Source: Rhizophagus irregularis (Eukaryota > Glomeromycota > Glomeromycetes > Glomerales > Glomeraceae). Taken from it: a stretch of 64,000 nucleotides of DNA. Every line of letters starts with the position of its first letter. Positions within the stretch are counted from its first letter, which is position 1. Below the pieces are notes generated by a model. The model was not told where the DNA came from. It saw only the letters and a list, made by a program, of their open reading frames with translations, and did not search any database. The translations under genes were made by a program, and so were the position numbers. Positions 1 through 50,218 of this stretch are shown here, in pieces. The stretch lies in NCBI RefSeq assembly GCF_026210795.1, contig NC_089451.1:2898001-2962000 (forward strand). The letters run 5' to 3'.

Positions 1-3000
1 AAACTTTCAGTTCCAACAATTTCCATAATATGACGACCCCTTCCTAATACAGTACTATTTTTCCCAATATTGTGTTTATTAAATTCTATACTAAAATTAT
101 AACTTTTCATTAATAATAAATTATTAATAATAAAATTATTTCGCAAATGTTGACCCATAAAGATTAAATCTTTATTAGAAAAAGGAAAATTAATTAAAGG
201 ATTGAAAGGTAAAAGTAGTTTATTTTGAATATCTACTAAACGAATCTCCATTATTTTTCCTAGAATTCCTTGATCATTAATTTGAATTATAAAATTATTA
301 ACCTTAGCTTGCAATTGATTATCAAAAATTGAACGAATATTATATAATAAATTCAATTCCATAATTATATTTGGTGCAGTTGAAGCTAACTTTAATTTAT
401 TTTTAAAATTTTTTCTATAAGGAACCATGATTTTTTCACAATCTTTTTCTGATAGTATTATCGTTTGTGTCCTATATTCGATACGTGGTAATATTACAGC
501 ATTAAAAATATAGGAACTAATTTTATCTGTTATGCATTTGTTCTTCAGCAGGTTATTACTTAAATTTTTAACTTCATCAAAGGCTTGTTGTTTGATAAAA
601 TTGTTATCATTATATATATTGAACCAAACACCCAAGATTCTAAGACTTTCTGTTTTTCCTTTAGGTTTGATTTTGATTTTCTGATTGCCAAATTCTAACT
701 CTATTTTTTCATTAAAATTAAAATTCTTTTTCTTAAGTAACAATTCAGATTTTTCTTTATTTATTTGAATATCGTTAAGAGTATAGAAGTCATCAGCCGT
801 TTTTAATATTTTTTCTAATTCTTCTTTATTGCCAGCTAACATATTAGTATCATCCATATATGCCATGCTGGTAATGTTTTGTTTTACTTCTACCTCTATA
901 TTTTCATATAAATTGATTTTCTTTTTTGCTTTTACACGATATCCAAAGTGTTCTTGCTGTATGGCAGTAAGAAGTGGATCATAATATATACACCACAAAA
1001 GTGGTGAGATTATTTCCCCTTGATCGATTCCAACCATTACATCATATGGATTACTTAATCCTCCTGCTGTAAATACACTATTTTTCCGTCCTAAAAATAA
1101 CTCTTTTGTTAAATTAATAAAAGAACTTGGTATTTTAAGACGTTGCATAGCTTTTTCTAACATAAAAATATTAACACGATCATATGCTTTTGACATGTCT
1201 AATGATAAAATCCACAGTTCCTTATCATTCTCATTAGCATCTTGAATTATTTCATTAATAATCCTTAATGGTTCAAAAGTTGAACTGAAAGGCAATCCAG
1301 CAAATTGTAAACCTTTAAGAATTTTGTTTTTCTGAAGAATTGTTGATAATCTTGCATTCATTATTGATACCATTAATTTCCTAGCCGTTTCCAACAAAGT
1401 TATTGGGCGTGTATTAACTAGTTGACAACCCCATGGCTTTGGTTTCGGTATAGGATAAACATTAGCATATTTCCATTCTAATGGTATCTCTTGATTATTA
1501 AAAATTAAAATAATTAATTTTCTAATAATTTCTTTAAATTCTGGAGATGCGTGTTTCAACATTTCATTACTAATACCCGTAGGTCCAGAAGCTTTATTAT
1601 TTGATAATTTATTTAAAGCTTCATTCAATTCATCATTTGTAGGCTCTACCATCAAATCTTTATAAATTTTATCATTAATTTCATCTTGAGGAAAATAAAA
1701 TTTTGCCCAATATTCTGATAAAATCTTAGGTTGGTTTGTTGATCCTGCAATATTTTGAAAATGATCATTTACAATATCTTTTATTTTTTCTTCATCAGTG
1801 ATTAATTTATCTTCATTATTTTCTTTAATTAGAACTCTGTCTAATACAATGGATTTAATTTCACGTTCCATTACACTATTAATCATACGTTTTTGATTTT
1901 CTAATAAATCTTCACAGCGTTGGTCAATTGCTAGTTTAATTTTTTCTTCTTTGAATTGTAAAAGATCGTGATTATATAGGATTAAATAAATTTGATATAA
2001 ATTTTTTATTTCTTCAAAAATTTCCTTGACACTTTTATCATCCTTAGGAATTTTATTCCAACAATAATCACTTTTTTCTCTTCCAATTTCCAATAATTTT
2101 TTTCTATATGTAATCCAATTTCTGATCACATGATTTCTTTTTCTTGAATCTTTAATTGAACGTCTGAAATTTATTAAAAATTTCATTACTTTATATGCAT
2201 TAGATATTTTCATTGGGTTGACTTGACTTTTAGTTAATTTGATTTTTTCTATTGGAATACAATTTTTACTAGCTTGAACAAGACCTTTTTTGATCTTATC
2301 CCATATATGATTAATATTATTTTTATCGTTAAAATTAAATTTTAAAATTTCTGAATTTGAAATGTATTTATTAAGATCATTCTGAAATAATTCCCATTGC
2401 TCTCCATCCATTTTATCATACTTATAAACTTCTTTAAATCCTTCCTTCCGTTTGATATTAGCAATATTTCCAATCAAATCTTCTGACCATATTGAATACA
2501 CTAACATTCTATGATCAGTATTAATTGTTGTTGTATTAACAATTTTGCATTCTTGTGTTTCTGAAAATAAATTTTCTGTTACCCAAATGTAATCTATTCT
2601 AGAAGGATTTTGATTTGTATTAAAAGGATAGAAAGTATTTAAGGAATGTTGTGATAAATTATCGAACATGATATAGAAAGGATCATAAAAATTTTGTTCA
2701 TCTTCAATCCATTCAAAAAGTTTATGTTCTTTTTTCATTTTACGATTATTATTTTTATCATCCAGATATTTTTCATAATGAAGATTAAAATCACCAAGAA
2801 GAATAATTTCTGCATTTTGTGCTTTACTTTCTCTAACCAATTCTTTGATTTTATCAAAATAAATTTTAACTTCTTGATTAAAATTGTCTAAAGTAACTCG
2901 TCCAGATTTTCCATAATAATTAATGATTCTCATTTTTTTATTTCCACTAAAAATAAAATCAACATATATAATTCTTCCTTTGAAGCTATTATAATTGACT

Positions 3001-3389
3001 ATATGCCGTGCATAATTTTTCTTAATAATAAGACCTACACCATTTCCCCTATAATTAGTTTCCTCATTTGCAAAATAAGTAACATAATTATTTCTATAAA
3101 AATTAAAAGAATGTTTTGCCATTTTGTTTGATATATTAGTTTCTGATAGACCCAAAATAGTTATATTATATTCACCTAATATATCAATTAAGAATTGTTT
3201 TTTAACATCAGTTATACCTTTAATATTCAATGAAGCTATTTTAATTATATCTGATAAATTGAGTCGTTGACGTGTTTTTGGACGATAAATTTGTTGATTA
3301 TTTAAATTTGAACGTGATTTTTGATTAACAGGGGAAGGATTATTATAATGTTTTTTCTTAAAAGAATGTGTTTTTTTATTGTTCATCAT
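1..3389 (-). CDS. LINE-A ORF2: APE-type endonuclease plus reverse transcriptase (partial, runs off left edge)
   Basis: This is the replicase of a non-LTR retrotransposon, which nicks target DNA and primes reverse transcription from the nick. I start it at the ATG at 3389, 24 bp after the ORF1 stop. Three blocks I translated, at the start, the middle and the left edge, all lie in one frame, so it appears open for about 1129 codons and continues outside the window. The endonuclease is near residues 30-290, with LLGDFNLHYEKY near 2790 and a RIDYIW motif near 2605. The reverse transcriptase holds GPTGISNEML near 1580, NTRPITLLETARKLM near 1400, LDMSKAYDR near 1190 and the catalytic MAYMDDTN near 860. 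No break was seen in the parts read. The family relation to LINE-B is visible in the shared RT motifs (TRPITLLET, GIDQGE, LLW.IYYDPL). Any 3' RNase H or tail would lie outside. Confidence 0.9.
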   Translation of the reverse strand, partial: MMNNKKTHSFKKKHYNNPSPVNQKSRSNLNNQQIYRPKTRQRLNLSDIIKIASLNIKGITDVKKQFLIDILGEYNITILGLSETNISNKMAKHSFNFYRNNYVTYFANEETNYRGNGVGLIIKKNYARHIVNYNSFKGRIIYVDFIFSGNKKMRIINYYGKSGRVTLDNFNQEVKIYFDKIKELVRESKAQNAEIILLGDFNLHYEKYLDDKNNNRKMKKEHKLFEWIEDEQNFYDPFYIMFDNLSQHSLNTFYPFNTNQNPSRIDYIWVTENLFSETQECKIVNTTTINTDHRMLVYSIWSEDLIGNIANIKRKEGFKEVYKYDKMDGEQWELFQNDLNKYISNSEILKFNFNDKNNINHIWDKIKKGLVQASKNCIPIEKIKLTKSQVNPMKISNAYKVMKFLINFRRSIKDSRKRNHVIRNWITYRKKLLEIGREKSDYCWNKIPKDDKSVKEIFEEIKNLYQIYLILYNHDLLQFKEEKIKLAIDQRCEDLLENQKRMINSVMEREIKSIVLDRVLIKENNEDKLITDEEKIKDIVNDHFQNIAGSTNQPKILSEYWAKFYFPQDEINDKIYKDLMVEPTNDELNEALNKLSNNKASGPTGISNEMLKHASPEFKEIIRKLIILIFNNQEIPLEWKYANVYPIPKPKPWGCQLVNTRPITLLETARKLMVSIMNARLSTILQKNKILKGLQFAGLPFSSTFEPLRIINEIIQDANENDKELWILSLDMSKAYDRVNIFMLEKAMQRLKIPSSFINLTKELFLGRKNSVFTAGGLSNPYDVMVGIDQGEIISPLLWCIYYDPLLTAIQQEHFGYRVKAKKKINLYENIEVEVKQNITSMAYMDDTNMLAGNKEELEKILKTADDFYTLNDIQINKEKSELLLKKKNFNFNEKIELEFGNQKIKIKPKGKTESLRILGVWFNIYNDNNFIKQQAFDEVKNLSNNLLKNKCITDKISSYIFNAVILPRIEYRTQTIILSEKDCEKIMVPYRKNFKNKLKLASTAPNIIMELNLLYNIRSIFDNQLQAKVNNFIIQINDQGILGKIMEIRLVDIQNKLLLPFNPLINFPFSNKDLIFMGQHLRNNFIINNLLLMKSYNFSIEFNKHNIGKNSTVLGRGRHIMEIVGTES

Positions 3390-3413
3390 TAAAAATAATA
3401 TTTAAAGGGGTAT

Positions 3414-5513
3414 TTAATCCTCATGGGATTCATTATTGTCAATAATTTTATCCCCTTGAAAATTATTAACGTCATTATTATTGTCAGAAGTAAAATATTC
3501 CATAATTTTTGAGATATTTTTACTCATAGTTGATAAAGCATCACCGAATCTATTAATTTCGTTATTTTGTTTGTTTAAACTATTTTCTATATCTGAAGAT
3601 CCTGAGGCTTCAAGTTGTTCATTATCAACTCTTGATCTTTTGTTATTCTCATTTTGTAAGGCGATTGTACTTCTATCTTGATTGACTTTAATATTTTTTC
3701 CTGAACTTGTTGTAGACTTGTTTTCTTTATATTTATAAAATTCAGATTTAATACGATAGTTTTCTTGTTGGATTTTTTTGAAATCATTAGCTAATTTATT
3801 CAAATTCTCATTAAGTTGTTTAATTTGCGTGAAAATTCCTTGATCAAGTGACTTTTCATTAACGTTATTATTTCTATCACGTGAAATATTTTTATTCCAA
3901 TATCTATTGATATTTCCATTATTATATTTAGAATAATTATTTGAATTATTACTTTGCTGACGTTTTTCAAATGAATTTTGTTTTGTTACATTTGCATAAC
4001 TGCCTTTTTTAAACTTCTTGTTATTTTCTTGACGAAACTCCTTAAGCTTTTGCTTTCTATTCATTACACGTGGTTTAGCAGATGGTTCAATATCACACTT
4101 ACTAATTAAATGATCAAAGGAACCACATCTATGGCATGATTTTTCACCTGGAGTTCCCCAATGAAGCGTTCTATTACAAAAAATAATATTTCTTTCTGCT
4201 GCAATACCTATATCTTCATCATTTTCATAATAAACTATTGCATAATTCAATGGTTTATTATTATTTGGATTACGTGGTATAAAAATATACTTAGGATTGT
4301 TAACTTCTAAAGCTTCATGTATATCATAAGCAGTTGAATTCCATGGTAATCCAGTTAATTTAACTGTATACATTGATCTTTTTTCTATTTCATCTTCTGA
4401 CAAAATTTTTGGCACAATAAGTACTTGATGTTTTCCAATCCATTCTGACCATATGCCTTTGTAAAATTTTTGTAGACTTTCTTCTTTTTTATATGTAATG
4501 AAAGCTTGAATATATAAATTTCTAATTCTGGTATAAAAGCCATTTTCTTCTATTTCACCATATTTGTTAAATACAGCTCTAATTTGATAATTAGGAATTT
4601 CAATTGGAATATTTATAACTTTAATCGTTCTACAATTTCTATCTTTAATTTCTTCTTCAGTAAAAACTTTTTTAGTTTTTTGATATGGTGTAAATTTTAT
4701 TATTTCCTTAACCTTACTATTAGTACTCGACTCTGCATCTTCACCATTTTCATGTGACTGTTCATCATCAATAATATCAATTTCTAGATTAATAATTTTA
4801 TCATAATCATTTTTCATGATTGGTAAAATGATAAATTCGGGTTCTTTCTTATTTAAGATAACTCCCCCGGCCAGGGTAACATTAATTCCAGCTAGTTGTT
4901 TTCTCAAATTAAACTTTTTTTGAATAATATTGTTTCCTGGAATAGAATCTTTTTTGATTTTAACTAAAATAGGTTTAGCCTTATTAAAAATTTCTGAATG
5001 ATTATCACTAATTATGTCATTAGTATCACCATTTTTCTGATTATCCTTATTAAAAGATTGATCATCTGTTTGATTATCAATTTTTCCATTGTCGACGATC
5101 ATTTCATCATTTTTTTCACCATCAATTGGTGCATCTAGATTTTCTGGTGTTACTTGATTATCTGTATTGGATTTTGCTGCGCCACCGCTTTCAGATGAAG
5201 AAGCAAAAGTATCTTGACTAATATCCATATCATCAGTAGTTTTTTCAGTAGATTTATATTGCCTAAAAGACAAACGAGGTTGTTTTTTCTGTTGTTTTTG
5301 TTCAACTTGTTTTTCTTTATCTTTTCTTTTAGTTTTACGAGAACTTGCAGGTTGCCAATCCTGAATAATAGGATTGATATTGAAGACTGGTTTATGTATC
5401 GAGTCTTGAAGAGTTTGCTGTTGTCCTGGTTTGTTAACTTCTTTATCTTGTTGCTGTCTTGTACTTGACCGAGTGGCGTGGACCCTAGGTTGCGACCCTG
5501 ACATCTCGAACAA
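3414..5513 (-). CDS. LINE-A ORF1: RNA-binding protein with RRM-like folds and CCHC zinc knuckle
   Basis: ORF1 proteins of LINEs bind the element RNA and form the retrotransposition particle. This 699-residue protein begins with a long polar, low-complexity region. Two RRM-like segments follow (about residues 295-370 and 385-455), with RNP-like strands such as RTIKVINIPIEIP and YTVKLTGLPW. Directly after them comes a CX2CX4HX4C zinc knuckle, CHRCGSFDHLISKC, at about 461-474. The C-terminal third is rich in Asn, Lys and Gln and ends in a likely coiled coil. The frame is intact and the stop lies 24 bp before the ORF2 ATG, a compact bicistronic layout. The ATG at 5513 is the first in frame; sequence up to about 5640 is the probable 5' UTR. 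Confidence 0.88.
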   Translation of the reverse strand: MFEMSGSQPRVHATRSSTRQQQDKEVNKPGQQQTLQDSIHKPVFNINPIIQDWQPASSRKTKRKDKEKQVEQKQQKKQPRLSFRQYKSTEKTTDDMDISQDTFASSSESGGAAKSNTDNQVTPENLDAPIDGEKNDEMIVDNGKIDNQTDDQSFNKDNQKNGDTNDIISDNHSEIFNKAKPILVKIKKDSIPGNNIIQKKFNLRKQLAGINVTLAGGVILNKKEPEFIILPIMKNDYDKIINLEIDIIDDEQSHENGEDAESSTNSKVKEIIKFTPYQKTKKVFTEEEIKDRNCRTIKVINIPIEIPNYQIRAVFNKYGEIEENGFYTRIRNLYIQAFITYKKEESLQKFYKGIWSEWIGKHQVLIVPKILSEDEIEKRSMYTVKLTGLPWNSTAYDIHEALEVNNPKYIFIPRNPNNNKPLNYAIVYYENDEDIGIAAERNIIFCNRTLHWGTPGEKSCHRCGSFDHLISKCDIEPSAKPRVMNRKQKLKEFRQENNKKFKKGSYANVTKQNSFEKRQQSNNSNNYSKYNNGNINRYWNKNISRDRNNNVNEKSLDQGIFTQIKQLNENLNKLANDFKKIQQENYRIKSEFYKYKENKSTTSSGKNIKVNQDRSTIALQNENNKRSRVDNEQLEASGSSDIENSLNKQNNEINRFGDALSTMSKNISKIMEYFTSDNNNDVNNFQGDKIIDNNESHED

Positions 5514-5640
5514 GTTAAAACTTAATAAACTTACTCTTAAAATTGAACTTTTTCCTTTAAAAATTCCGCAGTAAAAATGGTCTTGAATACAAAGAAGAAG
5601 AAGTTTTTTAAATAAAGATTTAATTAGTTAGCGTAGAAGA

Positions 5641-7220
5641 GAGGTTGAATTGATCAGATCATTTCCAAATTTATCCATTTTTCCGCTTAATTTGGATAGT
5701 GTTGTAAATGATCGTCAAGAGTTGATATGTTTTTTGATCAATTTTGGAAAAGCTCAGATAAAAATTTGAGTTGCGTTTTATAAATAATACTTAATGCATT
5801 ATGCTTTATGATTAGATCACGAGTACAAGTACGAGTTGGTGTAGACAATTCATAATCATAATCATAATGCATATGCATATGCTTATGCTTCTTTGACATC
5901 AAAAGAATAAAATTGCAATTTAGGGCTTCCTGTGCCACTTTTGTTGTAAGTTAAGTTGAACCATCAAAAAATAAGACACACGGCAAATTTCAATTTTTGA
6001 TGATCTGCGTACATAAAATTTTTTTTTCTTTTGTTTTTTTTCAAGTTAATTTTAACAAAAATAAATGTATCTATTTTTTTTTTCGTATAATGATTATTTT
6101 TATTAATCAACTAATTAAATATTATTGTTAAAGTTTCAAGAAAAAATTCATACAAAAAATTAAATTTATTTTTTTACTTTTTTTTAAAAAAAAGAAATTT
6201 ACTTTTAATAGATATATTTTTTAATTTTTGTTGTACAATAGATGCAATAAATAATTTTTATTAAATTAAACATAAATTTTTGACTGTAATTTTATTAAAA
6301 AAAATTAATAAAAGGTCTTTAATTTTATTTTTTTCGTAAGTAAATTGAAATTTTTAATGATCTACGTAAGAAACTTTCACTTCATTTATTAATTTTAGTT
6401 TCTATTTAAAAAAAGAAAATTACTTTCAATAAGTATATTTTTTAATTTTTTTTGTATAATAAATATAATAAATTATTTTTATTAAATTAACAAAATTTTG
6501 ACAATAATTTTAAAAAAATTTAATAGAAGATTTTTAATATTTTTTTTTTCGTAAATTGAAATTTTTAATGATCTACGTAAAAAATGTCACTTGATTTATC
6601 AATTTTGTGGGTTTTTTTTTTAAAAAAAATTACTTTACCGAATAAAGTATTTTTATTTTTTGTTATACAATATACAATAAATTATTATTAAATATTTACC
6701 ATAGTATCAATAAACTATTATTAAATATTTACCATAGAATAACAACTATTTTAAATTAACCAATTAAAATTTAGATTTTTACGGCAATAAATTGAATTTA
6801 TGATTTACGTAAACAAAAGTTTCAATCTTATTCAATTATTATTTATCTATCAATTTTTTTGTTAATCTTTATGAAAAAACGTATCATACAGTATTATTCA
6901 ATATTTTTTTATTTTTTATTTAATAAAAAAAAATTATTTTATTTTATTTTATTTTTATTTATATAATAATTAAATGATGAAAAATTTACAAATATTTTTT
7001 GTCATTTGAAAATTCATTAGCTAATCAACAAAATCCAAAACAATTACTAATAAATTTATTATATATTTGTCTAATTTAACTTTTAAACAATTAAACAAAA
7101 TTTTATTATACATAAACATTTCACATATTAAAAAAATTCCCAAAAAAATTTCTCATAAAATTTAAATATTTTTACGTACAATAAAATAAAATTTCCCAAC
7201 TATTTCAATAAAAAAAAACT
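5641..7220. repeat. Gene-free AT-rich spacer with four degenerate copies of a roughly 210-bp unit
   Basis: No gene is recognisable here. A motif close to TTTTTAATGATCTACGTAA recurs near 5995, 6352, 6560 and 6793. Each copy is followed by a poly-T/poly-A run and AATTATTTTTATTAAATT. This reads as an old tandem array of about 210-bp units, heavily mutated. It lies between the LINE-A 5' end and the promoter of the next gene. Confidence 0.45.
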
Positions 7221-7229
7221 TATATAAAG
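7221..7229 (+). promoter_or_regulatory. TATA box
   Basis: TATATAAAG lies 48-56 bp before the ATG at 7277. This is the usual distance for a fungal TATA promoter with a short leader, and it supports the plus-strand reading frame that follows. Confidence 0.5.
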
Positions 7230-7276
7230 GCTATAAAAAAAAACGTTTGTGTTAATTTTTTTTTATCTATAACAAA

Positions 7277-7752
7277 ATGCCAGCTCAACTTTCCACAATC
7301 TTATATATTTCAAATTATAAAGAATCTACTGCACCAAATTTCTTTATTAGTTCTACAACTGGCATAACAAGATTAAATGAAAATGATTCAATACAAACGT
7401 TTAACATAACTATTTTTTATCCAATTAATCCTTCAATACCATGTTATATTCCAAAACTAACAAATGGCCAAGTTCTATCAGTAAATAATTGTAAATTTTC
7501 GTTGGGAAATAATAATGAAATTGATGTAAATATTTTTTTTTTTTTTTTATCATTTTTTATTTTTCACTTTTTATTTTATTTATTTCATTTTTATTTAATT
7601 TTCTTTCACTTCACTTTTCATTTTATTATCATTATATCATATTTCAATTAAACAAATGATAATTGCACATTAAATTATCAGTAGATTATCAGCATTACTG
7701 GCAAGGTTGTCCAGGGACGGAGTCCCTGGTGTTAGACGCATTTCTAGTTTAA
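7277..7752 (+). CDS. Small unidentified protein, probably two exons
   Basis: I do not recognise the family. The ATG at 7277 follows a TATA box and opens an 83-codon exon (7277-7525) beginning MPAQLSTILYISNYKES. The protein is mixed hydrophobic-polar with no signal peptide or membrane segment. A donor GTAAAT follows at 7526. A phase-compatible acceptor TTATCAG at 7691-7692 would add a short exon, 7693-7752, ending in TAA and giving about 102 residues. Reading straight through the donor instead gives a poly-Phe tail, which is unlikely to be real. The proposed second exon lies antisense to the proposed last exon of the microexon gene, so at most one of the two 3' ends may be correct, or the genes overlap tail to tail. 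Confidence 0.4.
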
Positions 7753-9888
7753 ATTATATAACAAAAAGTAATAATAAAATTAAATAAATAACTTATAACT
7801 CACGATCTATTTAGATAAAGAAAATAAAGAATTTAGTTAGTTTAAATTATATGTAAATATTATAACAATAAGTAATAATAGAATTAAATAAATAACTTAC
7901 TTCCTATTATTTAAATAATTTTTAAATAAAGAATTTAGTTAGTTTAAATTATATGTAAATATTATAACAATAAGCAATAATAGTATTAAATGAACAATTT
8001 ACCCCCTACATCTTTTAAATAATTTTTTAAATAAAGAATTTAGTTAGTTTAAATTATATGTAAATATTATAACAATAAGTAATAATAGAATTAAATAAAT
8101 AACTTACTTCCTATTATTTAAATAAAGAATTTAGTTACTTTGAATTATATGTAAATATTATAACAAATAAGTAATAATAGAATTAAATAAATGACTTACC
8201 AACTAAATGAAATTACAAAAATAAATTTTTAAATAAAGAATTAAATTATACGTAAATATTATAACAACAAGTAATAATAGAATCAAATAAACAATTTACT
8301 CCCTATATTATTTAAATAATTTTTTTAAATAAAAATTTAGTTAGTTTAAATTATATGTAAATATTGTAACAATAAGTAATAGTAGAATTAAATAAATAAC
8401 TTACTTCCTACATTATTTAAATAATTTTTTTAAATAAAGAATTTAGTTAGTTTAAATTATATGTAAATATTGTAACAATAAGCAATAATAGTATTAAATG
8501 AACAATTTACCCCCTAAATCATTTAAATAATTTTTTAAATAAAGAATTTAGTTAGTTTAATTATATGTAAATATTATAACAATAAGTTTTAATAGAATTA
8601 AATAAATAACTTATAACTTACGATCTATTTAAATAAAGAATTTAGTTAGTTTAAATTATATGTAAGTATTATAACAATAAGCAAATAATAGAATTAAATA
8701 AATAACTTACTTCCTATATTATTTAAATAATTTTAAATAAAGAATTTAGTTAGTTTAAATTGTATGTATATATTATAACAATAAGAAATAATAGAATTAA
8801 ATGAACAATTTACTCCCTACATTATTTAAATAATTTTTTTAAATAAAGAAATTAGTTAGTTAAAATTATATGTAAATGTTATAACAATAAGTTTTAATAA
8901 AATTAAATAAATAACTTATAACTTACGAGCTATTTAAATAAAGAATTTAGTTATTTTAAATTATATGTAAGTATTATAACAATAAGTAATGCTAATAGAA
9001 TTAAATAAATACTTATAACTTACGATCTATTTAAATAAAAAATTTAGTTAGTTTAAAAATATTATAACAATAAGTAATGACAGAATTAAATAAATTAAAT
9101 AAATGACTTACTAACTAGTAAAAGAAATTACAAAATAATTTTTAAATAAAGAATTTGTTAGCTTAAATCATATAAATAATAGAAATAAGACATCATATAA
9201 CTTACACCCTGAATTATTATTAATTTTTAATTAGTTAGATATAAATATGAAAGAAAGGTATTTACTATAAATTGAATATATTACTTACAATCTATTATTT
9301 AAATTAAGAATATAATTAGTTAAATTATATAAAAATATTAATATTATTCTTAAGTATTATAACTTACCAACTGTAAATATAATTAATTAATTATTAAACA
9401 AAAAATTTAGTTATTTGAATATTATGTAAAATAAATAAAGTAAAAAACTAAAAATTTAAATAGCTAATAACTTACAAACTATAGTATTATTAATTATTAA
9501 ATGAATTGTTTAGTTACATAAAATATAACAATAATAATAAGTAATTCCATTGTTATTTAATTATAATATAACCTATTAACTTACGAGCTAAATTATTTAA
9601 TATATTTTTTATATAATATATTTAGTTGGTATATTATATAAAGTTTTATTTATTGATAAGTATTTTAAAAGTTATTTGCAAATAAAAATTTGATGTTTCA
9701 GCTTGTTTAATATACCTTCAGATTCCTTGGTACTACTTCCTTCAGATTCTTCAGAGCCATTTTTTTTATTAATACTACCGAAGACTAGTTTTATTATATT
9801 GCCAATTTGTTAAAAATTTCAAAATTCTAATTGTATTAAATGAACATACTATATATATGATTTTACCCTTATCATTACTGTGAGCCAT
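7670..9888 (-). CDS. Candidate microexon gene: 22 exons, 19 of them 3 nt long
   Basis: Predicted, unrecognised protein of 73 residues. Exon 1 is 9888-9867 (MAHSNDK plus one base, then GTAAAA). Exon 2 is 9784-9716, preceded by CTAG, encoding a Ser/Glu-rich segment (NGSEESEGSSTKESE), then GTATAT. The next 19 tandem units each contain AG, three bases, then GT. Plus-strand starts of the triplets are 9585, 9476, 9368, 9289, 9206, 9112, 9024, 8927, 8814, 8711, 8622, 8511, 8405, 8300, 8200, 8108, 8003, 7901 and 7804. Read in order they are CTC, TTT, TTG, ATT, GGT, TTA, ATC, CTC, GGA, GAA, ATC, GGG, GAA, GGA, TTG, GAA, GGG, GAA, ATC. Phase is 1 throughout and no stop arises; the joined codons give ALFDWFNPRRNRGRIGRGN. 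A last exon, 7743-7670, stays open to TAA. The introns carry GTAAGT or GTAAAT, a CTAAC-like branch site and TAG. No transcript evidence is available. The last exon is the weakest part because it overlaps an antisense exon candidate and contains a palindrome. Confidence 0.5.
7710..7728. repeat. Perfect 8-bp palindromic stem with 3-base loop
   Basis: CCAGGGAC, GGA, GTCCCTGG forms a GC-rich hairpin in otherwise very AT-rich DNA. It lies inside both candidate 3' exons at this locus. It could be an RNA hairpin or the trace of a small inserted element. Function is unknown. Confidence 0.6.
7744..9715 (-). repeat. Tandem array of about 19 intron-sized units (79-113 bp)
   Basis: Spacings between successive triplets are 97, 102, 105, 92, 100, 105, 106, 111, 89, 103, 113, 97, 88, 94, 83, 79, 108 and 109 bp. 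The left units (7.8-9.0 kb) are close copies of one another. The right units (9.1-9.6 kb) are strongly diverged in body sequence yet keep the acceptor, triplet and donor. The plus-strand core GAATTTAGTTAGTTTAAA is the reverse complement of a branch-site region holding ACTAAC. One unit is therefore about one intron long, consistent with growth by unequal exchange of an intron plus its 3-nt exon. Confidence 0.85.
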
Positions 9889-12119
9889 TACTATATAACA
9901 ATATATAAAAATTTTCCCTAACTATAAAAGGGATAAAATAAATATTATTTATTAAACACCTTATAAGTATGAGTAAATATGGTAATAATATTTATACAAA
10001 ATTCATTATGTTGATCACAAGTACAAGTATTGCATATATACTGTACATGTATGACAAGAAAATTTTGCATGTCCGGAATGCATGTTGATCATTAATCCTC
10101 ATTGTTACATAGAAAAAATCACAAAATTGAGAAAATTTTCTTAATACATATTAAATATACAAATTTCAAAAGTCATTAAGAAGATAAGTTTGGCTACTTT
10201 GAAAGTTTACTTAGAATGATAAAGAATGTCAAAGGTAGTTTTGAATATCACTTTTGATTTTTCATTAAAACCAACTTAAAAATGAACAGCATATATTTAT
10301 TATTTTCTAGTTTTATTTTAAAAAAAAATTTTGCGTATACTTCAGGGTATAAATTCAACATTTTAGTCAAAATAAACCACCTCTAGGTATTTAGATAAAA
10401 TATCTAAACTACTTGCATATAAATTTTTTAATATAAATATTTAATAAAAAAATAATACATTATCTATCTGTTTAATAATATGAATTTATTATTTTTAAAT
10501 ATAATTTCATTAAATTATTTTGATTTATAAAAATTTTTATTAATTCGTGATCTGTATGTTGATCTTTTTTTTTTTTTTTTTAAACAGTAATGCGCTTTAT
10601 TAATTATATAAGATCTAAATCGATCAATAATTACAAATTTAAGCACCTAGAGCAAAGAAAGTTCAAAGACTTTCTAAACCCTATAACTGAGTAATCTTTA
10701 GACTAATTTCTAATTTAAAATCTAACTAATACATTGTGTTTGATTTTAAAATTAATATTGTTTTATACTACGCTACTATTTTAAAATTTTTTGATGTTTT
10801 TGGATTTTTGCTATTTTCTATATTTTGAGGCTTTACATTTTTTCCTTAAACTTCCTAAACTAATTGTGAAGAAAATAATAATAATAACTATATACTGTAA
10901 TGAGTAAAAAAACGTCCTAAAATAAAGCAATAAAAATTTTAATAATAAAAATTTAAAAGAAAACTAAAATACTTTATCACGGAAAATATCCATCACAAAA
11001 CTCTTTGTTGTTTAAGAAAACTTCGATCAAATTCCAGAATCGTCATTTCTGTTAAACTTTTAATTTTGTTAAAAAATTTTTGGGATATAATTTGTTTATT
11101 CGTTATCCGAATTGTCCCTTTCTTCCTGCTTTCGCACTATACGCTTTTTGTTGATATTAGTCTTTTCTTCAACGTTATCATCCAAAGTATCCACTACTTT
11201 CTTTTTCCAGTAAAAAAAAATTGTCAACGTAATGTCCCTTTCAGTTTTTTATAAAAAAAAAATAATTCTTTTACCCAAAAAAAGAAAATCAATTATCAAA
11301 CAATAAATATCAAATTACCTTTATATTTTACTATAAGTCAATCAAAAATCGTTATGTTAATTTACTATTATTATTATTTATTATTATTCACTATTTATTG
11401 TTAAAAAAAATATATATATTTCAAACTAAAAAAGAAAACATTATTGATTAATAAGAATTTACATTTAGCGATTTATTTGGTTAAAGTGATTTCCCGACAG
11501 ATGATTTCTCAACAGGCCAGATGTATGCAGAATTATGCACGAACATGTGATCAAACAGCGTTAGACTGTCTTCGTAAGCGATTTATATACGGCACGATTT
11601 CATTTATTATAATTATAAACTAATAATAATTATAAACTAAAAAATCAACTATAAAAGAAAGAATCAAATTTCCTTTATAAATTTTACATTATGTTATATC
11701 GTAAAACAAGTTCAAAATAAATTATATTTCATATATTTTACATTTACATTTTATAGTCCTAACTCTTTGTTATCGGATCATTAAAATTTGCAGTAGATTC
11801 ATATAAATTATCAATCGCGTAAAACAATATTTGTCACATTATTTATTATGCGAACTTTATTGTGGCATAATTTTAAAAAGCAAATCAATAACTGAAAGAA
11901 GAAACATTACTAACGTTTCCTATATTTTTTTTGTACTGAAAACAATAAGTTTTGACATGTCGAAACTTAAAAAAAAAAATACTTTTTTTAAAAAATTTCT
12001 TGATACTTTTTTTTTATAGGACTTTCAGCGTGTTCAACTTCAGAAAATGAAATAAGTTTTGAAGCATTATTTTCAACTAAAACTAAGTATCAGTGACCAC
12101 CTTTGATGGTATAAGTGAC
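9889..12119. other. Gene-free AT-rich stretch
   Basis: No convincing reading frame was found. A T17 run at about 10567-10583 could be the reverse-strand A tail of a short retroposon, but no tRNA-like head was found. The phrase ATTATGCACGAACATGT at about 11533 recurs at about 14039, so it belongs to a dispersed repeat. A block at 11905-12030 is similar to 12866-13035. Confidence 0.5.
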
Positions 12120-30298: not shown

Positions 30299-31758
30299 AC
30301 TAGGTGTAACCCGTCGCGCTGCGCCGGGGATAGTATTTTGATAATAAATATTTACAATATGGTAAGGTTAGACTAATAAATTTATACAATTTATATAATT
30401 TACATATTTAATTCTATTTCATCATTTTTAGGTCCTTTAGTTCTTCCAGTAAGGTTCAGTCGTTTTTCATTTTACATTTCGCTTCTTACTCATTTTTTTA
30501 TTTTTTATTTTGTTTTTGTTTCATATTTCGTTTTTCACTAATTTATTTATTTTTTTTTCAGATATTTTAGTTCTTTCAGTTCTACAATTAATAAAGGTAT
30601 TTTTTTTATTTTTTTTATTTTTTTTTATTTCGTTTTTATCTTATATTTCATTTCTTACTAACTTCATTTTTTGTTTACTTTATGGTTTATTTTTTACTTT
30701 GTTTCCTCATGATCACTTTTTTATTTTTGTCTCTCATCATTTTTCACTTTATACTACTTCTCATTATTTGTCTCCCCTTATTTTCTATTACATCTTCATT
30801 TTCCATTATTTCATTTTCTCTCCTATTTACTTCCCATCATTTCTTTTGTCTTTCAATCACTTCTTTTCATTTCCATTACTTCTTTTCGTCTCCCATTACT
30901 TCTTTTGTCTTCTATCACTCCTTTTCGTCTCCCATCACTCCTTTTCGTCTCCCATCACTCTTTTTCGTCCCTCATCACTCCATTTTGTCTCTAATCACTC
31001 CTTTTTGTCTCCCATCACTCCTCTTCGTCATCCATCACTCCTTTCCATCACCCATCACTCCTCTTCGTCTCCCATCACTCCTTTTCGTCTTCCATCACTT
31101 CTTTTCGTCACCCATCACTTCTTTTCGTCACCCATCACTCCTCTTCGTCTCCTATCACTCTTTTTCACTTCTCTTCATCTACAATCACTCCTTTTAGTCT
31201 CCCATAACCCCTCTTCATCTTCCCATTACTCCTTTTCGTCTCCCATCACTCTTTTTCATCATCCATCATGTCCTATTTTCCTTTTTGTTTCCTATCACTT
31301 CTCATTACTCTTTTTTACTCCCTTTCTTCTTCTATTACTTTCCATTACTCCATTGTTATTTCATTTTTTTTATTAGCATCTTTCTCCTTGATCATTGTCA
31401 TTTACTTATCTTTTTTATTTATTGTTACTGTTTTTTTTATTGTATCACTTCATTAAAAATAAATACAGTGATTTTTTTCTTTAAAATCGAAAATGTGGGA
31501 CTTAATTTTAAAAAATTTCATTTAATAAGATTATTTTGAATAAATATGTTTGCAAAAAAAATTTATCTTCACAATAAAATTTTGTTTAACCGATCAAAAA
31601 ATTAGCTAAGTTAAAAAAATCTATACGTTTGCCGATCAAATAAATTGCCTTAACTTTTAAGTTTAAATCAGGCACTGAATCATGCTACACAATTCAAGAT
31701 TATTTATACAGACTTAATCTAAACGTTAGAAGATCGACATGTATTTTTTTATTATATT
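30299..31758 (+). mobile_element. Inserted repeat element beginning ACTAGG, containing a CT-rich minisatellite
   Basis: The insertion boundary is defined by paralogy: the TLDc 3' flank stops at about 30298 and resumes at about 35241. The element begins ACTAGGTGTAACCCGTCGC, a short GC-rich start. It holds the minisatellite and ends in CACAATTCAAGATTATTT...AATCTAAACGTTAG and a T-rich tail at 31750. The next element has the same start and end style, so this is a repeat family. No coding capacity. Superfamily is unknown; a Helitron or SINE-like origin cannot be decided. Confidence 0.5.
30880..31262 (+). repeat. Minisatellite, 20-bp unit CTTTTCGTCTCCCATCACTC, about 17 copies
   Basis: Units are mostly 20 bp with point variation in the CGTC and CCC parts; one or two are longer. 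Because 20 is not a multiple of three, all three frames stay open over long distances and give artificial Ser/Phe/Pro-rich proteins. The related minus-strand copy is at 26.27-26.48 kb. Confidence 0.9.
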
Positions 31759-38345: not shown

Positions 38346-41300
38346 TTAATAATCAATAATATCTTTTAATTCGAGCAAATTTTCTGTTTCTTTTCTTAAA
38401 AAATATTTTTTTTTAAAAGTTTCTGGAATATTATTTGTGTAAAGTGGTAATGAATGATCCATTTTAGGAAGTTCTTTATGATAATCCTTAGTAATTTGAA
38501 CATACTCTATTTGCTATAGTAAATAAAGGAATGATAATGTTATAATTATAAATACTGTACATATTGAAATATGAGAATAAAATTGCATACCATGTCAATA
38601 GAATTACTTGTTTCAATTGAAAGTTGTATACGATAGTCTATATATACAGAATGAAATGACACATATAAAATCCATCCTAATCCCTCAAGTTTTAATATAT
38701 CCTTATGTTTTAATTTATGTCTTCTATTCGTGAAAATCTTTGTATGAAATTATAGAATTATTCACATATTAGTTGTGGTTATTAAAATTAAATAAAACAA
38801 CATTTGTTGTTAATTACACTTACTGCATTATCACCAGCTTTAAATATAATATAACTGTTCGATGAAATTATTTTTTTTATATTTATTTTCCAAATTATAT
38901 AATAGTTAGTTTTCCCGTAATATATGAAAAAGCTGGGCAAGATAAAGTAATAATTGTCTTTAAGAGATAATGTATGCCTTATAAAACAGATTTTTAAAAA
39001 TCATTAGTTTTATATATGATTTTTTAAATTATTACGAATACTGTTATAAATATATTTACCTATTTAAATTAGTACTTCCTTGAAATTGACAATTATAATT
39101 AAGATTCATAAGGTTGGACATAAAATAAACTCCTTTTGCTGCAATAGTACACTATATCAGAATGTAATAATTAATTTGCAGAATATTAATTTAATTGTAC
39201 TTACCATTATACATATAAAGGTCAAAATCATTAGTAATTCCAGGTTGAGTATACTTCTTAATAATATATTGTCTACACAAGTATAACCAAAAATCTGAAT
39301 ATTTTTGTAATAAATAAACAAATGAAACATCATCATTTAACCCAAACAATCTATTTAAATCTAATGCTGCATCTTCATATTTTTTTAATTCAATATATAT
39401 TTCGCATCTTGTCAAAAGTAATGATTCATTATCATTAATCTTAGCAGTAAGATTATGATAATTTGGCAAACACTTTAGATTATAATCAATATTAGAAATT
39501 TGAGGAAGATAATTGCTTGAATCTTTCAAATACATTTTTTCTAAATCATTATTAGGATCTAATTCAATGCATTTTTTAAATGTTAATATAGAACTTATAT
39601 TATCTTCTATTAATCCTTTATAATTATATGCTAAACTATTTGAAGTATCCAATTGTATGATATTATTAAAATCCAATAAAGCTTTATCATATTCTTGAAG
39701 AATGTAATATATAATAGCTCTCCTAGTTAAATTGTGAACATTTTCTGGATCTATATTATTTGCTTTTGTAAAATATGTTATAGCATCACCATACTTTCCT
39801 ATTTTACTTAAAGTTTCGCCATAATAACATAAAATTAATGAATCCTCCTCATTAATACTGAGCAATTTACCCAACATCTTTAAAGTATTTGAGAATATTT
39901 TTTTCTTTTCATAAATATAAGCACAGTACTTAAGACATAAATGATTATTTGGATCATTTTGTAATACAATATCAAAATATTTTAGGGCATCTTTATTATT
40001 GTTATTTTTATAATAACTAATTCCAATCATCATATATAAATTAGCTATTTTAGCATTATACTTTATTGAAGCTATTAAATCTCTTACAGCATCATTATAA
40101 TTGCCCTGTCTTAAATGAATTTCTCCACGAATATACCAGGCATTGGGCTTTTTTCCTTTTAGTTCAATAGCTTCATTTAAATAAAAATGTGCTTGTTCAT
40201 AATTATTGAGACACCTATAGGTATAAGCTAAAATACATCTTATGGAATAACTTTTTGGAAAAGTTTTAAGAAATAATTTACACCAATGTTCAGCATTTTT
40301 ATAATTTTTTTCTTTTAGTTCTTTAATAGCACTTAGATATGTTGGATGCTGTTTTCTTCCAATTTGAAATATTGACTTTAATGATATATTTGGATTTAAC
40401 TTAATTGCTTTTAGAATTCTCTTTTTCTTAGTTAACATAAGATCAATTTCTGAATCACCTGAATCACTATGATATTGGTTATTTGTTGAATCTTCTTTTT
40501 CAATTGAAGGTAAAATATGTCCAGCTTCAAAAAATTGTGAATATAAATGTTTATAAATAGCATTTTGTGGTAAATATTTAATATCATTATCTTGAATTAT
40601 TTCTCGACATTTAGGGCAATTTTTTTGTTTTAATTTTTTTAAACTATTGATTGATAATATATGTTGGCATTTTAAAACGCATAATTGATCTGTTGGTTCA
40701 TGATCAATTGGACAAGTCATTTCATTTGCAATCATTTCTAAAATTTCACCCAATTTTGATATATTATTTGTTAAATTTGTATTTTTAATTGATGAACTCT
40801 TTTCTTTTCCTTTTCCCTTTCCTTTTTCAATATTATAATCTAATAGATTAAAATCATCAGAGCACTTGTTTTTAACAAATGTTAATAAATTTTGGAACTT
40901 TTCTGAGGAATCTGTTGTTGAATTGTTTTCATTTAACTTTTGGATGTATTGATCAAAGTCAATTTCAATCAATGAGAATATTTGGTTATTAATATTATTT
41001 AAATGAAATAATATTTCAATTGCTTTAAATTGAATGAAACTGCTTGGAGCTCTATTAAGTGATTCAATTGCTAAATAATAACAAAGACCATGAGTGGATT
41101 TTCGAGTAGATTTATGAATAAGATTTTGTGCAAGATCTAATATTCCAAACCACAAAGTATGTGGTAAAGCAAGAGGTTCATTTCCAGCAAGTTCATTGAT
41201 GAAACTTCCAGTATTTCTAAAAACTTTAACAAGTTTAGTTGATATTTCATCAAATTTTGATTGAGAATCTAAAATAGAATTATCGTAAATGTCACTCCAT

Positions 41301-42319
41301 TCCTTTTCCAAATAACTCCAAAAATATTCCATTAATACCATTTCTTGAAATTTCTCACTAATTATATTTTCAGTACCACCACCAGACCAGTTGAATAAAT
41401 TATGTTGAATTATAAGCATAATTCTCCAATCTACATAATAAGATGCTACTGGATATTTAAAATTTAATCCTTTACGTAATTGAGTGAGCATTGATAAGAT
41501 CGAACAATTATCATTTGGAAGATTAACTCCAGGTGCTACTATTGATAAAACTCCTGGTGTAATATTTAATACAGCCTTAAGTAATTCCTTAGTTCTTCGT
41601 ATAGTTTCTTGAAACCAAGTTTCGTCATCACGCAAGCTATGTAATGTATCCCGTAAGTGAATTAATAAGAAGTCAATATTATAATTTCGTTTATTCATAA
41701 TACCCTCATCTTCTTTACTATCCTGTAATTGCTTGAATTGATTAAAGTCAGACCTATAATTATTATCAACTCCTTCTTGCATTACTTGCGTTGTTTTTTT
41801 ATGAATTTCTGCAAATTTTGCTAAAGAATTATAAACTTTATCTCGAAGTTCTTTACTTAAGCGCATTGGTGTAAAGCAAATTTTTTCCAATACAGCAACC
41901 CAGGTACGAATATGTAACTCTAGCCTAGCCACACTTAATTTATCATAATAATCAAAAGGCGTCGGATCCGCTAAAGTAACTAAAGAATTACGAAGGATTC
42001 CAGGCGAAAATTGATTAAGTGGGTTTTCAAAAAGTAATTTAAGAGCAACCAAATTTTCCATTTTAGCCAAATCTTTAGTAATAAGTTCTTCCGCCTTTCT
42101 ATCAGTTATAATAAATCCATCTTGTCCTAACTCGGGAAAGATAGAGTTATTGGATATGTTTTCAAGCAGAAGTGTTCTTAATTCTGCAGAACTATTAGTA
42201 GGTGAACTTCCACTCTATATATAGTTGTAAAATAAAATAAGCTTATTAATAACTTTAATTCATCAAAAATATTCAATACTTATATAAAATTTATTCACCT
42301 GGTTTGAACTTTCTTCCAT
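38346..42319 (-). CDS. RING-finger and TPR-repeat protein, six exons, 1192 residues
   Basis: Probably an E3 ubiquitin ligase with a TPR protein-binding array; this architecture is expanded in Rhizophagus. Exons: 42319-42299 (MEESSNQ), 42214-39205, 39138-39060, 38977-38824, 38737-38591 and 38513-38346. All five introns (60-86 nt) have GT...AG ends and every junction keeps phase. The N-terminal 495 residues are helical without a known domain. A RING/U-box-like zinc segment lies at about 495-545 (MTCPIDHEPTDQLCVLKCQH and NCPKCREII). About eight TPR-like repeats follow, near 640-890 (AWYIRGEIHLRQGNYNDAVR). The C-terminal four exons encode GVYFMSNLMNLNYN, LKHKDILKLEGLGWILYVSF and a Glu/Lys-rich end, LLELKDIIDY. 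Each added exon is open in a single phase, which is strong support. No break was seen. Confidence 0.85.
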
Positions 42320-45800: not shown

Positions 45801-48800
45801 TATCTAAAGGGTTGATATATAATCCTAAGATTCTTGTGCCTTTATATTTAGAAATAATGTTAACGTCCGTGTTTTGTCCATTGATGGTGAGTTGTATAGT
45901 TTTTCTATCATTACCTAATCGTTGATTGGTGAGGATTTTGTATTTGTCGATGTTCACTTTAATTTTGCTAACTAATAAAATGAGTGTGCGATATCTAATT
46001 TAGTTTCTAGTGTTTCTAGAGAAGGACTAAACCAGGTGGTGTCATCGAGGTATCCTACCAAGGATAATTCAAAATTATGAATAATGTCAGAGTCTTTGTG
46101 ATAAATATTTTTAATTTTCGTGGTATCACATTTGTAAGCAAGATGTGATTGTTGATTAATGTGATAAAACAGAGGGTCGTAATATATATTCCATAAAAGC
46201 GGTGAAACAACTTCGCCTTGGTCTATACCCTGTAGGACCTTATATGATGCTAGGTTTCCATTAGGTAGGATGATGGAGTTATATCGGTTAGAAAATAAAT
46301 TAATGAAAAAAGTAATTATCTTTTCCGGAATTTTAATACGTTGCAGAGCTAATCGTAATAATGTAATATCGACTCTATCATAAGCCTTTGATAAATCTTG
46401 TATGGCAATCCATAGTGGTTTCTTATAAATTCGTGCGTGTTCGATTGAATGCTGTATTTGGAACAGTGGTTCTAAACAAGATTGTCCCAAAACACCCGCA
46501 CGATTGTTGAATTGTAAGATGTTGTATTTCGCTAATGATTGATTTAATCTTTGAGAGAAAACTGAGACCATCAATTTTCTCGTCGTTTCCAAAAGGGTGA
46601 TAGGTCTTGTATTCGTAAGTTTACTATCCCAGTCATGTGGTTTCGGTATTGGGAATAGCAGAGCATCACGCCATTTTGTGGGTATCGTATCTAAATGGAT
46701 ACATAAGTTGAAGATCTGAGTAAGTAATATCAAAACGTCTTTATGTAGGTGCTTCAAGTCTTCATAAGTAATTTGAGAAGGACCAGGTGCTTTATTCGAA
46801 GGAGAATTTTTTAAGATGGCTAATACATCGGAAATATCAATTTGTTGTTGAAGCGTATCCCAACAATCACTATTGGAATGGTGGTTGGCCGGATCATATA
46901 TCGTACGCCACGGTAGAGGTAAATCGTCAATAGAGCAGTACGTTGATTGATTATCATGTTTACCTATATTTTGATAATGTTTAATAGTTTCTTTTTGTAT
47001 AATTTGTGGATTGTTAGTAAATATGGTATCATTATTATTATCTTTGAAAATTAATCGATCCAATGTAATTTTTCTAGGTTTTCTTTGAAGTATTGAATTA
47101 ATCATTTTTGTTTGATTAGTTGATAAATCAAAATTTCTTTGATTAATAAAATAATCAATACGTTCAGTTTTCCATTGTGATAATTCATCATTTCTTTTTT
47201 GTTTTAAATGGTTATATAATTTGTAGATTTCTGTTCTCTGTGCAAAGAAATCTTCTTGTGTGATAAAATTATTTAATATTATGTCGTGATCCATTGAGTG
47301 TGCTATTTTTTGTATATGATCACGATGGATTTTCCAATTTTTAAAATATGAAGTCCACATTGAGTCGGGAATACACGAGACAAACATAGATTTGTCTTTT
47401 GGTTTTTCTATTTTATTCCTGATATAAATGTGTTTTAAATTTAGGAATTGTTTCGTTTTATATAAAGTAATCACGTGTCGGTTCAATTGGCGAATGTGTA
47501 AAGGGTATAAATGATGGTGTTCTTGAGGTGTTATTTTCTTTTGAGGAATAGTTGACTTTTTAATATTATGTAAACTATGTTCAAATATATTCCAAGTATG
47601 GTCCAATTCATCTTGTGTCGAAATGTTATCTAAATCGATGTATTGAAAACGATGTTTAAAATATGTTTTCGAATGAGATTTGTAATTTTCCCATAAATCA
47701 TCATTCATTAATGAATAGTTTGGTTTCTCTTTTTGTTCATTTCGTCTGTTACCTTGACGATGTCGAGAGCATTTGAAAAGGTCGTTTTGTAATAAAGTAA
47801 TCACTGCTTTATGATCGCTAGTGAAATGTGATGGTGGGATTTTTTGTGCAAAAGTATGAATTGATGCGTTTAAAATATTATTGTTGCCAAATATATAATC
47901 TATTCTGTGTGTGGTTCTAGTTATATCTGGAGTTTGGTTTTCTGCATGGAATTTTGCCATGTCTTTGAAGCCTTTTAATTTTGCCATCTGAATTATATGG
48001 TGATTAAGATTATTTTTTTCTTTTGGGTAGCAATTGAGATCCCCCATAATAAGGTTGTAGAATTTGTGATTATCATCATTAGTATTTTGTGTTCTAAATA
48101 GTTGGTCAATGAATTGGTTGCACTCTTTTTTAATAATGTTGGTTTGTTTGTCTCTTCCCGCAGGTAGATAAACGCATGTAATGTTCAATTTATGGTCACG
48201 TTTGAAGCCCAATTCGATATTTAAGACGCGACCTTTGTGAAAACGAATTTGATGTACGTGTTGGTATAAGGTACTAGTAAGCATTATGCCTACGCCAGAG
48301 CCCCTGTTATCTCCATTAGCGTCTAAAATTATGTAAATAGATAAATTTTTATTAGTCGGATGAGGATGTCTTTCGACTAATTTGTTATTTTCATGTTTGT
48401 GGCAATATTGTGTTTCTGTTAGGCCAAGGATGTTAAAGTTATGTGTATCAAAATAATTGATAATATCAATTAATTTGGTTTTGTAGCCCCCTTGAATATT
48501 GATGGTTCCAATTTTGAGATAGTCTATAAAATAATTATTATCTGTGTTAACGACGTGTAAATTAGTAATATGTTCTTCGTTAGGTACGTCGTTTGCATCA
48601 GGAGTATATGATGTAGATCCTGAGCTGTGGTGACTATTGTCGTTGTTATTGTTATTGTTATATCTGTTTTTGGTATTTTGATTATTTGAATTTTTTTGGA
48701 TTTTTTCTATATTTTTTGAAGAAGAAGGTAAAGAATTAATAGGTACTTGAAATGAAGGTTGGTTTTCGACGCCAACCATGTTAATAAAATTGGTGTATTC

Positions 48801-48830
48801 CATAAAAAAAAGTAATTTTAATAAAAACAA
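42823..48830 (-). pseudogene. LINE-B ORF2: endonuclease, reverse transcriptase, RNase H and zinc-finger region
   Basis: The ATG is at 48830 or shortly after; MEYTNFINMVGVENQ, at 48803, is a good alternative start. The APE endonuclease is at about 48540-47790 (LKIGTINIQGGYKTKLIDII, LIMGDLNCYPKE, RIDYIFGN, SDHKAV). The reverse transcriptase is at about 46800-46000 (NKAPGPSQITYEDL, NTRPITLLETTRKLM, VGYLDDTTWFS). The frame changes near 45960-45972, where YKILTNQRLGND continues. RNase H follows at about 44390-43960 with its acidic residues in FYSDGSVSD, FKSESFAIL and IFTDSQN, and then KVKGHSNDKANDQADALAK. An in-frame TGA lies at 44110-44112 inside RNase H and a TAA at 43522-43524 after the Cys/His motif CTECSIDEDTNAHIGLCP. 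The same frame then runs on to 42823. Confidence 0.9.
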
Positions 48831-50090: not shown

Positions 50091-50208
50091 GGAAGCAGTG
50101 AGATAGCAAACCGAGTAAACAGGTAGGTTAATAGCCCCTAAAAGGTCTGTAAAGCCACAGAGAGATAACCAGGTAGAAGCGCGGATCTTTGGAAAAAATA
50201 TATTCGGC

Positions 50209-50218
50209 AATTGAAGAT
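50209..50218 (+). promoter_or_regulatory. Shared promoter motif AATTGAAGAT (gene 50242)
   Basis: The motif ends 24 bp before the ATG at 50242. The same 10-mer, allowing C for T at position 3, precedes three other genes of the element at 24-37 bp. No TATA-like sequence is shared at this spacing. Confidence 0.5.

Follow-up and report, generated by a model that had tools for sequence, protein, structure and literature searches.

Runs of three-nucleotide exons as a predicted variable N-terminal part of protein kinase genes in Rhizophagus irregularis

Can a stretch of protein be encoded one residue per exon, by exons of only three nucleotides that follow each other tens in a row? This question is raised by a locus of the fungus Rhizophagus irregularis, found within 64,000 nucleotides of contig NC_089451.1 (assembly GCF_026210795.1, positions 2,898,001 to 2,962,000 of the forward strand); this whole stretch is called here the window, and positions are counted from its first letter. 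A preliminary description of the window reported on its minus strand 19 tandem units with acceptor AG, three bases and donor GTRA. All 19 were re-read in the same way: between positions 7804 and 9587 they follow each other without interruption, each consisting of AG, exactly three bases and one of the donors GTAAGT, GTAAAT or GTGAGT (AG-NNN-GTRA), and the introns between these microexons are 76–110 nt long. The strict pattern YAG-N3-GTRAG has 16 matches in the window, all on the minus strand and 15 of them within the array, while other spacings from 0 to 12 bases in the same pattern give 0–3 matches per strand. Such concentration of the 3-base-spaced pattern means that the array was not made by chance. 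A branch-like CTAAC or ACTAA, initially noted upstream of every unit, is present 8–60 nt before the acceptor in 18 of the 19 introns and lacking in that preceding microexon 15. Scanning of region 7600–10000 against Rfam gave nothing at gathering thresholds.

Judged as a whole, the array is best explained, with high probability and on the evidence of DNA sequence, as the variable N-terminal part of a protein kinase gene, in which one-codon exons would be joined in genomic order by ratchet-like intron removal and would differ from one gene copy to another.

Order, phase and size of the exons

In phase 1 two neighbouring microexons contribute to each codon: the third base of the preceding one supplies codon position 1, and bases 1 and 2 of the following one, approximately 100 bp away in DNA, supply positions 2 and 3. 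Such junctions were collected from 25 non-redundant discovery loci (L004, L005 and L007 were excluded as duplicates of L017, L025 and L011) and from 9 further hold-out loci, all parsed by a chain model, which left the exon length free in the range of 1–30 nt without any preference and for the hold-out was trained on the 25 loci only. The hold-out loci were picked by hand from pattern-match lists rather than at random; L029–L032 had been printed and loosely translated before the test, L034–L038 had not. Of ten array clusters five entered the analysis via L001, L002, L003, L006 and L008 and one via L033, four being not sampled. Stop counts omit junctions located beside units of other than 3 nt or beside introns longer than 150 nt, and L033 is included in no stop statistic.

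Not a single stop codon was registered at 1059 adjacent phase-1 junctions of the 34 loci, compared to 35.2 expected from 2000 within-locus shuffles of microexon order (standard deviation 4.7, minimum 20). The discovery set taken alone gave 0/782 with 21.1 expected, and the hold-out 0/277 with 14.2 expected and a shuffle minimum of 5. When neighbours were joined in reverse order, 27 of 773 junctions became stops, and phase 2 contains 127 stops per 782 junctions of the discovery set. The deficit affects all three stop codons (TAG, TAA and TGA are each absent, with 20.6, 9.6 and 5.0 expected), while CAG is found 15 times with 17.6 expected; it is therefore stops that are avoided, not AG. Some junction codons are in excess, GAG being observed 42 times (24.5 expected) and TGG 83 times (60.2 expected), which is a bias at the level of amino acids. 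To our knowledge no process other than in-order splicing and translation links bases lying so far apart. Based on the zero number of junction stops compared to the shuffles, its reproduction in the hold-out and the reverse-order control, the microexons are very probably spliced in genomic order and read in phase 1. Both the phase and the one residue per microexon proposed at the outset are, in this respect, supported by the junction codons.

Trivial causes of the missing stops were also considered. Avoidance of AG dinucleotides at the junctions might remove TAG, but it was ruled out by the frequency of CAG and by the simultaneous absence of TAA and TGA. Conservation of the array ends and duplication of blocks were ruled out by two other counts: interior microexons, with the conserved ends left out, gave 0/773 stops with 23.4 expected, and each junction type counted only once gave 0/290 with 14.7 expected.

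The size of the exons is no less uniform than their order. Three nucleotides were assigned by the model to 847 of 869 discovery units and to 317 of 328 hold-out units, that is to 1164 of 1197 in all, in arrays of 19 to 82 units, although the length of introns varies (mean 97.7, standard deviation 9.7, n = 802). In L011 all 25 microexons and in L023 all 37 have this size of 3 nt. In old arrays L031 and L032 the identity between inner introns decreased to 0.61–0.62 with 0.58 in shuffled sequences, yet 68 of 70 parsed exons have 3 nt. Since arrays with introns near the shuffled level of identity keep this spacing, recent shared descent fails to explain it. The early remark that splice signals and spacing survived the divergence of units was correct for the family in general: they are conserved much more strictly than the remaining sequence of the unit.

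The gene family and variation between its copies

The genome searched comprises 146,748,485 bases in 32 contigs. With the sequence of the window array as a query at least 106 matches were obtained in about 30 clusters (30 of the 326 first-pass candidates were scored). An exact pattern for neighbouring microexons ATT and GGT gave 108 matches, and its reversed control gave 0. Unit type ATAG-N3-GTAAGTTAT was found 2756 times, compared to 18 matches in the control; because this type makes up 507 of the 847 parsed discovery microexons, the genome may contain, by rough extrapolation, approximately 4,600 microexons of this kind. The same unit type with 6-base spacing has 55 matches, with 17 in the control. 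Repeated ATAG-GATCTT-GTAAGTTAT was observed at G000 C16:3493422-3496668 and C2:2216875-2217323, where perhaps another tandem-intron family with 6-nt exons is located.

The surroundings of the arrays are also uniform. The upstream part consists of two exons, a short first one and a Ser/Glu-rich one, which end in phase 1; some copies have a single exon there. Downstream, in all 20 loci from L009 to L028, a site AG-N-GTAAG (N is A in 19 cases and C in one) lies beyond the array, and the order of elements is a 1-nt exon, an intron and the first kinase exon, for instance EFGKSGN...LRWIPYNKFKNVEYLNEGGFGTIYKAIW. The 1-nt exon, flanked by AG and GT, was found together with a recognisable kinase exon in 24 of 31 loci examined, and in each of these 24 the frame is open if this exon is included and runs into a stop if it is skipped or replaced by a 5-nt alternative. 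The other seven loci have no such combination; some of the fetched stretches end early, and this group would equally include any locus without a 1-nt exon. An exact pattern of the 1-nt exon and the start of the kinase exon has 69 matches in the genome and 0 in the control. In the conceptual product of L011 kinase domain PF07714 was recognised with 136.1 bits, the Pfam cut-off being 23.1 (E 1.8e-39). R. irregularis is credited with 2,533 kinases (PMC10234402); the expression mapping in that publication was done by minimap2 with a maximum intron of 3000, a setting that may conceal reads from these arrays.

Three bases of the microexon, E1, E2 and E3, behave differently. In phase 1 E3 becomes codon position 1, E1 position 2 and E2 the wobble position. 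E1 and E3, with information contents of 0.11 and 0.03 bits, are the least conserved bases of the examined stretch, compared to 0.76 for E2 and 1.8–2.0 for AG and GTAAGT. If units from different loci have identical 90-nt flanks, the microexon between them differs in 88% of cases (973 non-independent pairs). Among 3635 pairs with flanks identical by at least 99%, also non-independent, single-base differences were counted 626 times at E1, 550 times at E3 and only 31 times at E2, so that the rate for E2 (0.0085) is near that of the flanks (0.0073). In 159 disjoint inter-locus pairs the corresponding numbers are 20 for E1, 1 for E2 and 39 for E3. The excess of changes at E1 and E3 looks like selection for different amino acids between gene copies, as far as it can be judged from the sequences. 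Two circumstances call for caution. Where a pair differs at two or three bases, E2 is changed as well (the overall E2 rate in disjoint pairs is 0.195), and therefore exchange of whole microexons is needed. In addition, 809 of the 847 discovery microexons carry G or T at E2, partly by founder classes, and some hold-out arrays use A at this position more.

The copy in the window

The window contains only one part of such a gene, and all its elements lie on the minus strand. Exon 1 (9867–9888) encodes MAHSNDK and ends in phase 1 before GTAAAA; homologous first exons MALNNDK and MAHSNNK are present in paralogous loci, as well as in annotated R. irregularis kinases P0023, P0037 and P0039. Exon 2 (9716–9784) is Ser/Glu-rich, resembles an acidic exon of paralogs and likewise ends in phase 1, with GTATAT following it. 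This exon pair and its phase remain exactly as they had been proposed. Then follow microexons CTC (9585–9587), TTT (9476–9478), TTG (9368–9370), ATT (9289–9291) and GGT (9206–9208), of which the fourth and the fifth form the pair recurring across the genome and give conserved Asp-Trp. Further along the strand they are continued by TTA (9112–9114), ATC (9024–9026), CTC (8927–8929), GGA (8814–8816), GAA (8711–8713), ATC (8622–8624), GGG (8511–8513), GAA (8405–8407) and GGA (8300–8302). Microexon 15, TTG (8200–8202), the only one without the branch-like motif in its upstream intron, precedes GAA (8108–8110), GGG (8003–8005), GAA (7901–7903) and the last microexon within the window, ATC (7804–7806), which has the donor GTGAGT. 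All 19 were assigned by the pattern described above.

The intron after microexon 19 is represented by its first part (7745–7803) and is interrupted at 7744/7745 by a dispersed repeat. One end of this repeat lies at 7744; region 7400–7744 is present elsewhere in the genome, and the remaining span of 1–7744 would belong to the same insertion. A query of 351 nt from the repeat has five other near-full-length copies with 83–98% identity. At the far end of the insertion, outside the window, there is a poly-A run, after which the rest of an intron of the same type follows. The insertion looks LINE-like, about 10 kb long in all, and sits in the intron. Within its presumed span an open reading frame (ORF) of 699 aa with an RRM_1 domain was noticed (3414–5513, minus strand), which could be ORF1 of a retroelement. 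A 3' exon placed earlier at 7670–7743 is in phase but belongs to the inserted repeat and is no exon of this gene. For the same reason, the statement that 20 junction codons are free of stops has to be reduced: phase-1 reading of the 19 microexons is indeed stop-free, but the 20th junction was drawn to the repeat.

Approximately 10 kb further, beyond the border of the window, the array resumes at locus L033 (about C23:2895590-2893300) with some 20 additional microexons (18 by the pattern, after two stray matches were omitted, and two by eye); after them come the 1-nt exon and the first exon of the kinase. L033 also contains an intron of the interrupted type in undisrupted form. Of the kinase region of this copy the start of the first kinase exon was read. 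The array of the window is predicted, accordingly with this arrangement, to be the 5' half of one kinase gene.

Several other features of the window were also observed. Region 50000–64000 differs by its GC content (about 0.42, compared to some 0.25 for the greater part of the initial 40 kb) and carries long minus-strand ORFs matching DUF5679 and DUF5906/Pox_D5, with DNA_pol_B_2 just below the cut-off; to judge by these matches, it has the appearance of an endogenous element, DNA-virus-like or polinton-like. A LINE-like ORF of 952 aa with reverse transcriptase domain RVT_1 occupies 45972–48830, an ORF of 959 aa with tetratricopeptide repeats was found at 39191–42070, and a 20-bp minisatellite of about 21 copies at 30832–31268.

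Alternative readings and known systems

Several observations weigh against the proposed kinase gene with in-order phase-1 microexons. Thirty-three of the 1197 parsed units are not 3 nt long, some of them with ambiguous acceptors, and 4-nt exons in L010 or 1-nt exons in L022 would shift the frame; these units might have arisen through errors of assembly or decay of copies, or might be genuine exceptions. Phase 0 is also almost free of stops (2/847 in the discovery set and 0/317 in the hold-out). The test with the 1-nt exon scores only loci where that exon was found, and the hold-out, where only 8 pairs with single-base differences are available (3 at E2, 5 at E3 and none at E1), does not confirm the deficit at E2. 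Two protein searches over 5.8 billion proteins gave 36 and 5 matches of the kinase family, and inspection by eye revealed the phase-1 peptide in none of them. Models P0023, P0037, P0038 and P0039 jump the array, others begin at or near the kinase exon (for instance P0004 and P0019), and P0005, P0016 and P0018 carry a low-complexity run resembling 3-nt exons read in phase 0. Such runs were not counted as evidence of transcripts, because gene finders can chain strong splice sites. In one of these matches, P0040, which by its Pfam label is no kinase but DUF8211, the acidic exon is followed by KESK-DW, as ATT and GGT would give in phase 1, and then by unrelated sequence; the coincidence may be due to chance.

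Two of the alternatives also assume that the microexons are coding. Phase 0, with one whole codon per microexon and a 5-nt exon AGTAA in place of the 1-nt exon, would account for the rarity of stops in this phase and for annotated N-termini ending with SKFGKSGN (P0001, P0005, P0008, P0016 and P0018). It breaks, however, the frame of conserved exons 1 and 2, which end in phase 1, and after phase 1 the 5-nt choice leads to a stop in 24 of 24 loci; stop avoidance that depends on the order belongs to phase 1. P0001 is 99% identical to the kinase part of L023, yet its N-terminus (IGMGVVVGVGR...) fits the microexons of L023 in no phase, and this locus has only one AG-GTN-GT site against many valines in the protein. 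The phase-0 reading is given a very low probability. A little more room, but still not much, is left for combinatorial alternative splicing, according to which any subset of microexons may be included and one gene would produce very many isoforms. The preliminary description had drawn this consequence from the frame neutrality of the units, and skip-one junctions of the discovery set do show a partial deficit of stops (11 with 19.6 expected). Skipping of two or more microexons in the same set is at the chance level (18 vs 18.1 and 17 vs 16.7). In the hold-out even skip-one junctions are at this level (13 vs 12.4), while skip-two and skip-three exceed the expectation (16 vs 10.8 and 17 vs 9.5). 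Only in-order adjacent joining is protected from stops; beyond the partial skip-one deficit skipped junctions are unprotected, and the supposed freedom of skipping has little support. On the sequence level the observed diversity is that between gene copies rather than between isoforms of one copy.

The other alternatives deny the array a coding role or give it a different origin. Pure ratchet points, at which AG-NNN-GT would aid the removal of a long intron and the three bases would be non-coding, have the geometry of recursive splice sites, and sequential removal is mechanically plausible in view of the discussion of an Arabidopsis 1-nt exon in PMC4674806. But zero-nucleotide ratchets would leave no residue, whereas here the leftover bases avoid stops, only in joined order and phase, show biases at the level of amino acids (GAG and TGG) and are in register with the downstream 1-nt exon, which makes this possibility highly improbable. 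Still harder to accept is a noncoding tandem repeat of a dead or unspliced gene, with splice-like signals inherited by recent descent only. Many arrays are really young, identical introns recur across loci, and the copy of the window bears an insertion of about 10 kb; against this stand the order-dependent absence of stops between bases separated by approximately 100 bp, the spacing kept in arrays with introns near the shuffled level of identity and the 1-nt exon that fits the kinase frame in each of the 24 loci having both. About as little credence as phase 0 deserves the idea that mobile introns (introners) invaded an older continuous exon and settled between all its codons. They would explain why identical introns separate different microexons and why microexons differ between identical 90-nt flanks. 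They do not explain why insertion took place exactly every 3 nt; the middle base, being mostly G or T, is unlike an old wobble position, and the class of the acceptor tail predicts that of the microexon (for instance TTTATTTTAG precedes TTG in 29 of 35 cases). Visual inspection of the N-termini of the 36 and 5 protein matches revealed no uninterrupted form of this segment.

The statistics thus support order, phase, exon size, genomic spread and linkage to kinases, as far as these are readable in the genome. According to the explanation preferred here, the gene would be composed of two ordinary exons (one in some copies), a run of 3-nt exons, a 1-nt exon and kinase exons, separated by introns of about 98 nt. 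Because only 3 nt lie between an acceptor and the next donor, the two could hardly be bound simultaneously; introns would be excised in succession, and with every excision one codon would be added and the following donor uncovered, so that the ratchet would leave 3 nt rather than 0. The ratchet-like action mentioned as a caution in the preliminary description is probably a part of this mechanism and no competitor of the coding reading. Duplication and recombination of intron-flanked units would alter length and content of the peptide, and selection would favour amino-acid diversity between copies, supplying each kinase with its own tag, perhaps for recognition of partners; a variable recognition tag is also suggested as function.

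A wider version of this idea is put forward tentatively, as we consider it somewhat less probable than its negation. In such a genome-wide diversity system single-codon exons flanked by introns would serve as letters, recombination in near-identical introns would add, delete and shuffle residues in frame, and strong selection on the two bases that set the amino acid would create a private N-terminal tag for each kinase, by which a multinucleate fungus might tell self from non-self or recognise partners. In younger arrays codons usually end in G or T, and for this reason the majority of shuffles would also escape two of the three stop codons.

If the proposed gene structure is true, a protein stretch is encoded one residue per exon, tens in a row, across a large gene family, and the public models examined would either lack the N-termini of the kinases or give them incorrectly. 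The question about the smallest exon routinely usable by the spliceosome would then be sharpened, as simultaneous occupation of acceptor and donor is hardly feasible, and many natural substrates would become available for the study of ordered intron removal. Concentration of variation in the first two codon positions suggests a role in recognition.

Separate parts of this arrangement have precedents in micro-exon genes, a 1-nt exon and recursive splicing, while long runs of exclusively 3-nt exons are new within the literature searched: no description of tens of such exons in a row was found in its open-access part, subscription journals and preprints lying outside. Micro-exon genes of Schistosoma mansoni are similar in their succession of numerous exons, very short and for the most part frame-neutral, in being hard to annotate and in the variation of proteins between family members (PMC10526429). 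Their exons, according to the same paper, are mostly 15 bp long, with a range of 6–81 (3–81 in the abstract), there are 10–20 of them per gene, introns occupy 0.1–5 kb and the products are secreted. Here this exon size was not observed: 1164 of 1197 exons have 3 nt, arrays comprise 19 to 82 units, introns are about 98 nt long and the predicted product is a kinase, in which no secretion signal was noticed by eye, its start (MAHSNDK or MALNNDK) being polar. In Arabidopsis APC11 a 1-nt exon is needed for the reading frame, and, according to PMC4674806, where stepwise removal is invoked, exons of this size can be constitutive. That is one exon of a single-copy gene, proven experimentally, while here the 1-nt exon follows a 3-nt array in 24 loci and was deduced from sequence. 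Human RPS24 has three consecutive microexons between two exons, but only three, alternatively spliced and in one gene (PMC11162997). Closest in geometry are recursive splice sites and zero-nucleotide ratchets of Drosophila and vertebrates, in which acceptor and donor abut and removal is stepwise (see also PMC8605326 and PMC6110457). The zero-nucleotide geometry was not seen in the kinase-linked arrays, with 0–1 strict matches per locus on the array strand, and while the known ratchets leave 0 nt within long introns, those proposed here would leave three coding nucleotides per step between short ones.

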